Origin: Cognatundibacterium squillarum
GTDB taxonomy: Bacteria; Pseudomonadota; Gammaproteobacteria; Burkholderiales; Burkholderiaceae_D
Assembly (NCBI RefSeq): GCF_014652435.1
Contig: NZ_BMYU01000008.1
Coordinates: forward strand, 99,380-163,379
DNA length: 64,000 nucleotides
Direction: 5' to 3'
Shown: positions 48,278 to 52,214 of the stretch, in pieces
Position numbering within the stretch: position 1 is the first letter of the stretch
Layout: every line of letters starts with the position of its first letter
Position numbers and translations under genes: made by a program
Notes under the pieces: generated by a model
The model's input: only the letters and a program-made list of their open reading frames with translations
Told to the model about the DNA's origin: nothing
Database searches by the model: none

Positions 48278-49510
48278 TTACGTTGGCTGATGATCCCCTA
48301 ACCAGTAACGGTTTATATCTTTCAACCCCCATTTCGCGGCATCCTCTCGATTTGCAATTTTGTCCTGAACACCCGGCCCTGAAAGATCGATTAATTCTGG
48401 CTGGAGATAACTCATCGACTTAATAGAATAAAAAACTCTAACTTTTGGTGTCAGCAATGATTTTCCCGCCAATTGTTCGACAACGACACCTAATCTTCCA
48501 GACTCCAGCCGAACCAGAGTACCAACAGGATAAATACCAATACTCTTCACAAAAGCCTGAAAAATTTTTTCATCAAAATGGCCTTTACTCCACTCCGCCA
48601 TTTTACGCAGTGACTCTGCAGGACACCAACCCTGCTTATAAGGACGATTTGACGTAATTGCATCGTAAACGTCGCAGACCGCGCCCATTCTCGCAAACAG
48701 GCTGATCTCCTCTCCTTTTAATCCTTTCGGATAACCCGTGCCGTCAATCTTCTCATGATGATGCAAACATACATCTAAAGAAATCTCACTGACACCCTCA
48801 GAATCACGCAACATTTTATATCCCGCGGCAGGATGCTCTTTAACGGAAATAAACTCTTCGTCCGTCAACTTTCCTGGTTTATTGAGGATGTCGCCTGGCA
48901 CCATCATCTTACCGATATCATGCAGCAACCCAGCAACACCTGCCTCACGCGTCTGGTGCTCATCAAGCCCCAGCTGCTTTGCCAACGCAACCATTAATGC
49001 ACAAACCGCAACTGAATGCATGTAGGTGTAATCATCTTTAGTTTTCAGCCTGGCGAGACCAATCAGCGCTCCAGGATTACGCATAACGGAACTGGAAATT
49101 TCTTCAACCAGCTCTTTGGCATTATCGACATTTACCGCTTTGCCCATGCGAGCCTCAGCGAACATGGTATAAACAGCCTCCTTAGACTTATCGACAATCC
49201 GAGATGCTCTGCCAAGCTCCTCTTCCATGCTGGCTGGTACGATAATTCTTGGCGCCGGCACGGTTGCTACAACCTTTGCTTCCGGTGGAGGACTTGATGC
49301 TGGCTCTGACTGTTTGGGCTGATCGATATCAAGACCTTTATCAGTATCAATCCACGCTTCCCTGATACCTGATTTCAGAATCTGTCTGACCTCATCAAGA
49401 TCGGAAATCAAAAAAGATTTTTTCCAGAATGGTGTGCTAATCCACGAACCACAAAGTTCATGGACATACATCCCGACACGCAACTTGGCTACCTGGATCT
49501 TTTTCAACAT
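48278..49510 (-). CDS. HD-GYP domain c-di-GMP phosphodiesterase
   Basis: HD-GYP proteins hydrolyse c-di-GMP. The 410-aa protein has an N-terminal DUF3391 domain (about 4-130) and an HD-GYP domain (about 140-330). Metal and substrate motifs are intact: [46 protein letters not shown] and [13 protein letters not shown]. It has no membrane segment and may be soluble. It lies upstream of surE with a 52-nt gap. It could lower c-di-GMP and relieve the YcgR brake; this is inference. Confidence 0.93.
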
Positions 49511-49617
49511 ACTTCAATCACGATGATACTGACCGACGGCCAGATGTTTCACAAAAGAATCATTTTACAACGGCATTTCTGTTGCTGCCTGAAGGACAAA
49601 CTATTTAATGTTTTGAG

Positions 49618-50406
49618 TCAATCGCATTGTCTCAGTAATACAAACTGCTTAAAAAAATTCTGCATAAGACTGTTCTGAATAAAACTCAGGTTATATGGAT
49701 GCTCTGACACTAACCTTGGGATTTGCATTGCCTCAGGAATTTTATTTATTTCAGACGCGATTTTCCCCCATAGTACCAGCACCGGAGGTTCGGAAGAAAT
49801 GCTCTGCAGATGACACAGAATTTCACGCAAAAATGGCAACCAGGATTTACCATCTTTCGCCGGAGGCACGTCATCCCGGAACACTAGGGAAGCATTCAGT
49901 AACAAAAAACCTTTTTCTATCAGATTATTCTGTAGTTCCGGCAAGGTTCTGATTAATTGGATTCCGGTACTATTTGCTTTCGGCAGTATGCTTGACATTA
50001 CATCACCGGAAGTTTGATTTGCCTGCAACAATCCCTCCGTCACGCAAAGCATTTTAAGAAAATTTCTGAGTGACGTTGCCTTATTAACAGCTTTAGTAAA
50101 ACCCGATTCATCCCGGAGCCATATCTCATCAACCGCACCATCCATGAATGCATAACCGGTTGCACTCTCTGCACGCGGATAAGGCCCTTCGCCAATTAAG
50201 GCGTAACGAATTTCCGCAGGTGAACGCGAAAAAGCAGCAAATATCCTATTCTGGGTGGGTAAATAACTGCTTTCGGCCAAATTACGCAGATAACCGGGAA
50301 ATGAAGTTTCTACCGCCCGCAAACCACGCATAACAGGCATAAGCCATTCTGGATGAACTTTCGATAAAGCATCATCAAGCCCGCGAGGGATTTCAAACTC
50401 TGTCAA
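49618..50406 (-). CDS. Uracil-DNA glycosylase-fold protein lacking the catalytic Asp
   Basis: The 262-aa protein aligns with family 1 uracil-DNA glycosylase by motif order. The water-activating motif GQDPYH is replaced by GEGPYP (72-77), so the catalytic Asp is Gly74. The uracil-recognising Asn is kept (N171 in LLLNAS), a VLVLWGKIA strand follows, and the leucine-loop motif HPSPLS appears as HPYNLS (H236-S241). It starts with TTG directly after the gspC stop (TAATTG), with GGAG 8 nt upstream inside gspC, so it is co-translated with the T2SS operon. Loss of the Asp argues against normal glycosylase chemistry; DNA or nucleotide binding may remain. No role in secretion is established. Confidence 0.7.
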   Translation of the reverse strand: MTEFEIPRGLDDALSKVHPEWLMPVMRGLRAVETSFPGYLRNLAESSYLPTQNRIFAAFSRSPAEIRYALIGEGPYPRAESATGYAFMDGAVDEIWLRDESGFTKAVNKATSLRNFLKMLCVTEGLLQANQTSGDVMSSILPKANSTGIQLIRTLPELQNNLIEKGFLLLNASLVFRDDVPPAKDGKSWLPFLREILCHLQSISSEPPVLVLWGKIASEINKIPEAMQIPRLVSEHPYNLSFIQNSLMQNFFKQFVLLRQCD

Positions 50407-50985
50407 TTAATTTGCTCCCATTACAGCTGGCATGGAAGCAACGGGTACTCCCGGCACGACCATTGGAACATTTTGGGGAGGTGGTGGTGGCGGAACTGCA
50501 CCGGAAATGTTTCGTACAGGATAGTTTGTGACACTTGCACCCGAATTTTCAGCGACTGGAGCAACAATGCCATTAGCCGCAGTCAAATTACCTTGCGGCA
50601 ACTCAATCCTTCGCAAAACCCCGCCTTCAGTAAACTGCACAGATCTCGCTGAAATTTCCCGCACCTGAACACCAGGAACGATATCCTCGCCAACCCGCAC
50701 AGGCTTGGCAGGTTTTCCGTCTGCAACAACCAAGGCAACGCTTGGCAGACCAGCTCGTGACAAAATCACCCCTTTTAACAGGTAGCTGGAGGCTGCATTC
50801 TGCGCAGACTGACTCTCACCAAAAATACTGCCCCACATCCCTGCTGCAGGCTCAAAACTTTGCTGCACAACCGAAGAGGATACGCCACGCGCCTGTCCTT
50901 TAAACATTCGCATACCCCAAACTGCAACGCTTGCACAAAGCAATAAAAAACAACCAAAACTTAACAACACCGGAAGACGCTTCAT
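50407..50985 (-). CDS. gspC: Type II secretion protein GspC (short form)
   Basis: GspC links the inner-membrane platform to the secretin GspD. The 192-aa product has one membrane helix (about 5-27), a periplasmic linker and the homology-region domain (about 64-125: YLLKGVILSRAGLPSVALVV, GKPAKPVRVGEDI, VRRIELP-like end). It then ends in a Pro-rich tail (PPPPPP) where many GspC proteins have a PDZ domain, so the PDZ is absent. The ATG at 50985 has AGGA 6-7 nt upstream. It is the last gsp gene, an unusual place for gspC. Confidence 0.85.
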   Translation of the reverse strand: MKRLPVLLSFGCFLLLCASVAVWGMRMFKGQARGVSSSVVQQSFEPAAGMWGSIFGESQSAQNAASSYLLKGVILSRAGLPSVALVVADGKPAKPVRVGEDIVPGVQVREISARSVQFTEGGVLRRIELPQGNLTAANGIVAPVAENSGASVTNYPVRNISGAVPPPPPPQNVPMVVPGVPVASMPAVMGAN

Positions 50986-50996
50986 CACTATTCCTA

Positions 50997-52214
50997 TCAG
51001 CGCACAAGGGAATTAATTTCAATAATCGGCATCAGAACAGCCAACACAATAACAAGCACAACTACGCCCATCACAAGGATCAATAATGGCTCCAGCATAC
51101 CTGCCATTGCCAGCGCTCTGCGCTCCAGATCCTGCTCCTGGGTGTTAGAAGCACGCTGCAACATCGAAGGCAATTCACCAGTTACTTCACCCGCACGTAT
51201 CATATGAATTAAAACAGGCGGAAAATGCTTACTCGTAGAAAGTGCGCGTGCCAGACTAACACCCTCTCTGACACTATTTGTCGCCTCCTCCACCTGAGCC
51301 TTCATCGCAACATTCGATACAGTTTCACTGCTGGTTTGCAGCGCTTTTAAAATAGGAACACCGGATCCCGTAGTAATTGCCAGTGTTGACGCAAACCTGG
51401 CGGTATTCAGGCTACGCTCAAAACGACCATAAACTGGCGCATTCAGCAACCATTTATGCCACCGTAACCTTACTGTCGGATCACGCAAGGCCATTTTCCA
51501 TCCGAATCCCGCAAGCGCAATTACAATCGCGACAATCCAGCCGCTGCTTCGGACAAAGTCCGAAATTGCCAGCATGGCAACCGTGAGGGCGGGCAACTTT
51601 TGCTTTGTATTTGCAAAAACTGACACAATCTGGGGGACAACATAGGTCAGGAGAAATATAACAATCGCAAACGCAACAACGGTCACAATTGCAGGATAGG
51701 TAAATGCAAGTTTTACTTTCTGCGCAAGTGCATTTCGCCGCTCGATATAGTCCGCCAAACGCGACAATACATTAGCAAGCTGACCAATATGCTCGCCGGA
51801 CGCAACCAGAGCCCGGTAAATATCCGGAAAATCCTGTGGATGCTGTTTAAGCGCATCAGATAATGGGGATCCCGCCATTACTTCTGACCGAACCGCTGCA
51901 ATTAAATCACGAATAAAGGTACGCTCGGCTTGCTCAACTAAGGCGGTCAGAGATTGCTCAAGCGGCAAGCCTGATTCCAGCAAACTGGCAAGTTGGCGGG
52001 TAAACATCGCCAGTTCGACAGTCGACAATTTTTCGGCAAACACGCTGATTCCGGATTTGCCCGACCTGGCATTTTGCTGAATTTGCTCGACATTTACCGG
52101 AACCAACCCTTGTGAGCGCAGATCGCTGCGCGCCGCGCGGGAACTGTCAGCGTTTAAGACGCCTTTGGATATCTGCCCCTGCGCATCTACTGCTTCATAT
52201 CGGAACGCTGGCAC
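50997..52214 (-). CDS. gspF: Type II secretion inner-membrane platform protein GspF
   Basis: GspF is the polytopic platform protein that couples GspE ATPase rotation to pseudopilus growth. The 405-aa protein begins MPAFRYEAVDAQGQISKG and has two T2SSF helical domains (about 70-190 and 275-395), each with a family signature (FTRQLASLLESGLPLEQSL and ARFASTLAITTGSGVPILKA). Three membrane helices are visible (about 170-190, 220-240, 375-398). It starts with GTG; AAAGGA lies 8 nt upstream. It follows gspE by 3 nt. Confidence 0.97.
   Translation of the reverse strand: MPAFRYEAVDAQGQISKGVLNADSSRAARSDLRSQGLVPVNVEQIQQNARSGKSGISVFAEKLSTVELAMFTRQLASLLESGLPLEQSLTALVEQAERTFIRDLIAAVRSEVMAGSPLSDALKQHPQDFPDIYRALVASGEHIGQLANVLSRLADYIERRNALAQKVKLAFTYPAIVTVVAFAIVIFLLTYVVPQIVSVFANTKQKLPALTVAMLAISDFVRSSGWIVAIVIALAGFGWKMALRDPTVRLRWHKWLLNAPVYGRFERSLNTARFASTLAITTGSGVPILKALQTSSETVSNVAMKAQVEEATNSVREGVSLARALSTSKHFPPVLIHMIRAGEVTGELPSMLQRASNTQEQDLERRALAMAGMLEPLLILVMGVVVLVIVLAVLMPIIEINSLVR

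Follow-up and report, generated by a model that had tools for sequence, protein, structure and literature searches.

A Glu-Gly doublet like that of family 4 on an Ung-like protein next to gspC in Undibacterium: a probable uracil glycosylase without the family 1 Asp

The gene udgL (49618..50406, minus strand) of the window, the 64,000-nucleotide stretch of Cognatundibacterium squillarum DNA analyzed here, encodes a 262-aa protein with the fold of a uracil-DNA glycosylase (UDG) but without the catalytic Asp of family 1. We consider udgL to be, with a probability of roughly 0.6, a working uracil glycosylase in which a family 4-like doublet is set on an Ung-like scaffold.

The udgL open reading frame is full length and begins with TTG. 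As the preliminary description of this DNA had stated, this codon directly follows the stop codon of gspC (TAA at 50407-50409; gap of 0), and a GGGAGC inside gspC, just 5′ of the TTG, is a possible ribosome-binding site. The kinship of the protein to UDGs is beyond chance. It matched the NCBIfam ung models, all below their cut-offs (for ung, E of 8.7e-15 and 55.2 bits compared to a cut-off of 185.75), and it matched the sequence of PDB entry 5x3g with an E of 6.8e-40. A match to Pfam DUF1547 (E of 0.017, 15.9 bits compared to a cut-off of 25) was taken as chance. An AF2 model computed from the window protein and 40 named loci (L064, L082, L083, and L133 were left out of the 45 rows) had a pLDDT of 89.9 and a pTM of 0.89. 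Its best solved match was 5x3g, with a Z of 32.2 and 1.9 Å over 245 residues at 38% identity, compared to a Z of 15.5 for E. coli Ung (1eug) and of about 15 to 17 for canonical Ungs generally. The alpha/beta fold of Ung is present in the model, which bears out the UDG fold first proposed from the motif order. The record title of 5x3g is UNG from Nitratifractor salsuginis, and two candidates were dropped on this ground, Deinococcus DR_0022 as the closest relative of udgL and BdiUng as the identity of 5x3g. DR_0022 is described in PMC5128194 as a protein of about 15 kDa in which no activity was detected; since 5x3g is not DR_0022, this inactivity has no bearing on udgL.

The active site was compared across 46 homologues, consisting of 17 Gly-form sequences, all from Oxalobacteraceae or the window, and 29 Ser-form sequences from elsewhere. 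Motif 1, GQDPYH in family 1, is G72-E73-G74-P75-Y76-P77 in udgL (50176..50193, minus strand), and in the alignment, Gly74 falls where family 1 has Asp64, and Glu73 where it has Gln63. Both residues of the doublet therefore differ from family 1 (Gln-Asp to Glu-Gly), a point that the preliminary description did not weigh. Some trends were apparent. First, Asp was found at the family 1 catalytic position in none of the 46 homologues; position 74 was always either Ser (29 homologues) or Gly (17 homologues), and the preceding Glu73 was invariant. Second, Tyr76, Phe87 (50146..50148, minus strand), Asn171 (49894..49896, minus strand), and His236 were each present in 46/46, with Phe87 aligned to the uracil-stacking Phe (E. 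coli F77) and Asn171 to the uracil-reading Asn (E. coli N123). Third, motif 2, HPSPLS in family 1, is E235-H236-P237-Y238-N239-L240 (49687..49704, minus strand), where Glu235 was found in 45/46 and Tyr238 and Asn239 in 46/46. Finally, of the named loci, which were the 80 best among 520 relatives, 79 have the sequence GEGPYPR, and the script did not read the remaining one, L131. GEGPYPR was also found in all 29 further loci of the genus, and GESPYPR was found in 30/30 loci outside Oxalobacteraceae. The Gly at the Asp64 position in a GEGPYP beginning at residue 72 and the retained Asn171 and His236, including their numbering, had been anticipated correctly.

Four close Undibacterium pairs, three of which are drawn from one set of three genomes, gave a udgL dN/dS of 0.068 to 0.176; in all four pairs, this is above that of the neighbors tested, yet well under 1. 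Protein identity to the window's species was 0.44 for gspC and 0.52 for udgL, meaning that gspC diverged more. Because Glu73 and the pocket residues are invariant and dN/dS is 0.07 to 0.18, the Glu-Gly/Glu-Ser doublet is a conserved state, not decay. Two other acids were considered and rejected as substitutes: the one near motif 1 at position 80 varies (E in 13, A in 11, Q in 9, and D in 7 of 46), and Asp89 is invariant, but 5x3g also has Asp89 beside its Gln-Asp. Among the 46 homologues, the stretch after Asn171 has no invariant Asn, no conserved equivalent of the family 4 Asn89 was seen, and no Cys is conserved (at most 15/46 in any one column).

N. salsuginis UNG (5x3g and 5x3h; Li et al.) has the fold in common over nearly the whole length, as well as PYPR, D89, NRATSLRN, EHPYN, and the pocket residues. 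It differs in the motif 1 doublet, Gln-Asp there and Glu-Gly or Glu-Ser in the udgL branch, and in the residue after HPYN, His there and Leu, Ile, or Val in the udgL branch. Canonical family 1 Ung is alike in fold and at the Tyr66, Phe77, Asn123, and His187 positions, whereas its GQDPYH and HPSPLS correspond to GEGPYP and HPYNLS in udgL. In a tree with the 17 Gly-form and 29 Ser-form sequences, the udgL branch and 5x3g split from canonical Ung with a support of 100/100; a weakly supported branch (73/7) has the Gly form on one side, and the exact place of 5x3g is unsure. BdiUng of Bradyrhizobium diazoefficiens has GQDPY as motif A. It too belongs to a deviant Ung-like class, one likened to udgL by description, and wider specificity is ascribed to such enzymes in PMC8307549. 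UdgX shares with udgL the Glu at the second place of motif A, although the motif is GEQPG there and GEGPY in udgL, and PMC10359453 credits this Glu with water activation in mutants.

The doublet resembles that of family 4 UDGa of Thermus thermophilus, where motif 1 has the same Glu-Gly, the motif 2 His is present, and the family 1 Asp is absent, as in udgL. According to PMC5387724, UDGa, which has Glu-Gly at these positions and lacks that Asp, is an active enzyme; the E41Q change costs 888-fold and G42D 89-fold, whereas both swapped to Gln-Asp cost only 5-fold. The same source assigns water coordination to Asn89 and has the Glu touching uracil via its main chain. The rest of the protein is different. 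Family 4 has Gly after the Pro of GE(A/G)PG, compared to Tyr in 46/46 of the udgL branch, and neither the Fe-S cluster cysteines of family 4 nor an equivalent of its Asn89 is conserved in this branch. Furthermore, NCBIfam UDG_fam4 was not among the 5 matches of udgL at E up to 10, whereas the family 4 gene of the same genome does match it. Because conserved cysteines are lacking, Tyr follows GEGP, and motif 2 is HPYN, udgL is, as judged by sequence, not a member of family 4, and its doublet is family 4-like while its body is family 1-like. No description of a GEGPYP/GESPYP branch of UDGs was found among the papers listed in the literature search, with most subscription papers lying outside it.

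We propose that udgL, as part of the GE(G/S)PYPR branch, is a monofunctional DNA glycosylase that would remove uracil, and possibly other deaminated bases, in base-excision repair. The flipped-out base would be held by the invariant Tyr76, Phe87, Asn171, and His236, and His236 may stabilize the leaving uracilate, as suggested by its alignment with Ung His187 and family 4 His155. In place of Asp64, the Glu-Gly or Glu-Ser pair would set the loop, and the group that places the water would be Glu73 or another one, by analogy with family 4 UDGa.

Within the genus, 40 of 43 genomes had udgL, and in the family Oxalobacteraceae it was found in 221 of 245 genomes, which represent 37 of 44 genera; the seven genera without a match were g9, g11, g21, g30, g34, g35, and g36. 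A sample of the order gave 12 matches in 300 genomes, namely, all 10 members of the family and two weak matches that were canonical Ungs. At an E of 1e-12, 5/398 genomes of the phylum sample matched. One of these five belongs to another family, and in its order 6/7 genomes matched. The class sample gave 24 matches in 369 genomes; apart from the own genome, these were 23 genomes from 15 families. A Ser-form gene is also carried by a plasmid of Legionella adelaidensis, where it overlaps ubiG by 8 bases (63.6-kb plasmid record, L170:3007-4408). A phage origin was considered and rejected: 29 phage records, all of Flavobacterium phages, matched weakly, one translated protein from these phages has GQDPYP and passes an NCBIfam uracil-DNA glycosylase cut-off, and a search of viral contigs gave no relative. 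An unusual fusion was seen on a plasmid of Streptomyces sp. NBC_00841 (L172:1285-2988), a 567-aa open reading frame in which an ADP-ribosyltransferase domain (PF01129, E of 2.2e-9) is combined with a UDG-like part; the latter has GQNPYP and reaches 62.8 bits with NCBIfam ung, which is below the cut-off.

The Ser form and canonical Ung appear to avoid each other. Canonical Ung scored over its cut-off in 0/29 Ser-form genomes compared to 17/51 class genomes without a udgL match, the 51 having been taken in listed order (p of 1.6e-4, with genomes counted as independent and some incomplete on both sides), and with one genome per family it was found in 0/16 Ser-form genomes (p of 0.007). The Oxalobacteraceae are different. 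There, canonical Ung was found in 30 of 240 genomes, a sample that differs by up to 5 genomes from the 245 searched for udgL, and 25 of these 30 also hold udgL, so that udgL is no plain substitute for Ung in this family. The five with Ung and no udgL were G112, G144, G169, G205, and, by elimination, G248. When the family was pooled, the absence of udgL was not significantly linked to the presence of Ung (p of 0.20 or 0.07 as the two bounds), and the data did not bear out plain replacement within Oxalobacteraceae. In genus g19, the single genome without udgL is the single one with Ung among 17 listed (p of 0.06), and none of the Ung-bearing genera g6, g19, and g40 is among the seven genera without udgL. 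No canonical Ung scored over the cut-off in the own genome, which encodes a family 4 UDG with GEGPG, the same GEG start as udgL motif 1 (L001:1468-2391), and a DNA-deoxyinosine glycosylase (L002:1477-1989).

This company of other UDGs bears on what udgL acts upon. In the own genome it occurs together with a family 4 UDG and in 25 Oxalobacteraceae genomes with canonical Ung, and wider specificity is described for the deviant BdiUng (PMC8307549). These observations would fit a glycosylase that acts mainly on a base other than uracil, e.g., xanthine, hypoxanthine, or hydroxymethyluracil, with the change of doublet giving up speed to gain a broader range or a different lesion. We regard such a shift as unlikely. 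The Asn, Tyr, and Phe that read uracil are unaltered in every homologue aligned, the own genome already has a deoxyinosine glycosylase, and the lack of canonical Ung over the cut-off in the 29 Ser-form genomes points to uracil.

The missing Asp had led the preliminary description to suggest a sensor or decoy. A pseudoenzyme of this kind would bind nucleotides or DNA with uracil or AP sites but not turn them over, and would serve as a damage sensor or shield with no link to secretion. The absence of the family 1 general base throughout the alignment would agree with it, as would the Glu-Ser pair of the 29 Ser-form homologues, which is known here from sequence alone. The step from no Asp to no activity is weakened, however, by family 4 UDGa, which is active without this Asp (PMC5387724), and by the conservation of the pair. 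In addition, the leaving-group His is invariant although mere binding would not need it, and the joint change of both doublet positions is the pattern of a working enzyme rather than of decay. We favor a working glycosylase with a family 4 doublet over a sensor or decoy role, which we consider unlikely.

The gene neighborhood was the basis for a proposed coupling of udgL to type II secretion (T2SS). The genes ahead of udgL are read as a run of gspG to gspN, gspD, gspE, gspF, and gspC, the last of which (50407..50988, minus strand; PF11356, E of 5.5e-6, 26.7 bits compared to a cut-off of 27) is the upstream neighbor in Undibacterium. The downstream neighbor, a DUF3391/HD-GYP-type gene (48278..49510, minus strand), recurs in 28/30 loci of Undibacterium. 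In the 30 of 40 genus matches used for spacing, gspC was directly upstream in 30/30, the own locus included; 14 overlap udgL by 4 bases, 4 have no gap, and the rest range from −17 to +84 to the nearest start. Adjacency to gspC is a genus trait of Undibacterium. Among the 80 named loci, gspC was upstream in 10; nine are Undibacterium by name, and the tenth, the untyped MAG L133, is probably of this genus. A tblastn search for gspF, gspC, the HD-GYP gene, surE, and pcm found none of these in the other 70, where the flanks were short in some cases. The adjacency to gspC therefore stood within the genus and failed outside it, and the proposed functional coupling, which depended on such linkage in relatives, was not sustained.

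In the other lineages, the neighbors are different. In 37 of the 80 loci, udgL is preceded by uvrB in the same orientation, within 300 bases in 35, a repair setting that counts in favor of a glycosylase; in 2 loci, uvrB was downstream on the other strand. iscR was downstream in 55, and neither uvrB nor gspC adjoins udgL in 33. The own-genome uvrB retains its aminotransferase neighbor with no udgL alongside; a convergent gene beside it is read as an S9-type peptidase (L173:276-3546). A likely history is that udgL moved from behind uvrB to gspC, at the end of the T2SS operon, in the Undibacterium line, where, as its adjacency suggests, it is probably read together with gspC. A scan of 49450-51100 for promoter-like sites gave a single one, downstream of udgL, compared to 2.3 expected by chance in this interval. 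This site and the constant, often overlapping gspC might be taken to mean that udgL has a role in secretion or is co-regulated with it for a common function, but the absence of gspC, gspF, and the associated neighbors from the 70 other named loci, the uvrB or iscR common there, and the fold and pocket of a DNA glycosylase make such a role very improbable.

Several observations count against udgL as a working uracil glycosylase. The family 4 UDG of the own genome could do uracil repair alone, an equivalent of Asn89 is not conserved, and canonical Ung and udgL coexist in 25 genomes. The 33 loci with neither uvrB nor gspC adjoining and a dN/dS above that of the neighbors also weigh on this side. 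On a broader scale, we tentatively suggest, with somewhat less than even odds, that the GE(G/S)PYPR proteins are an unrecognized family of the UDG superfamily, which would be Ung-like, have no conserved cysteines, carry the family 4 doublet, and replace canonical Ung in many Gammaproteobacteria and most Oxalobacteraceae. If true, these proteins would be a natural version of the doublet swap made by mutagenesis in Thermus UDGa. Natural relatives have both doublets on one fold, Gln-Asp in 5x3g and Glu-Gly or Glu-Ser in the udgL branch, and the swap is therefore testable without changing family. For genomes that the canonical Ung model scores as lacking Ung, udgL could provide uracil removal.
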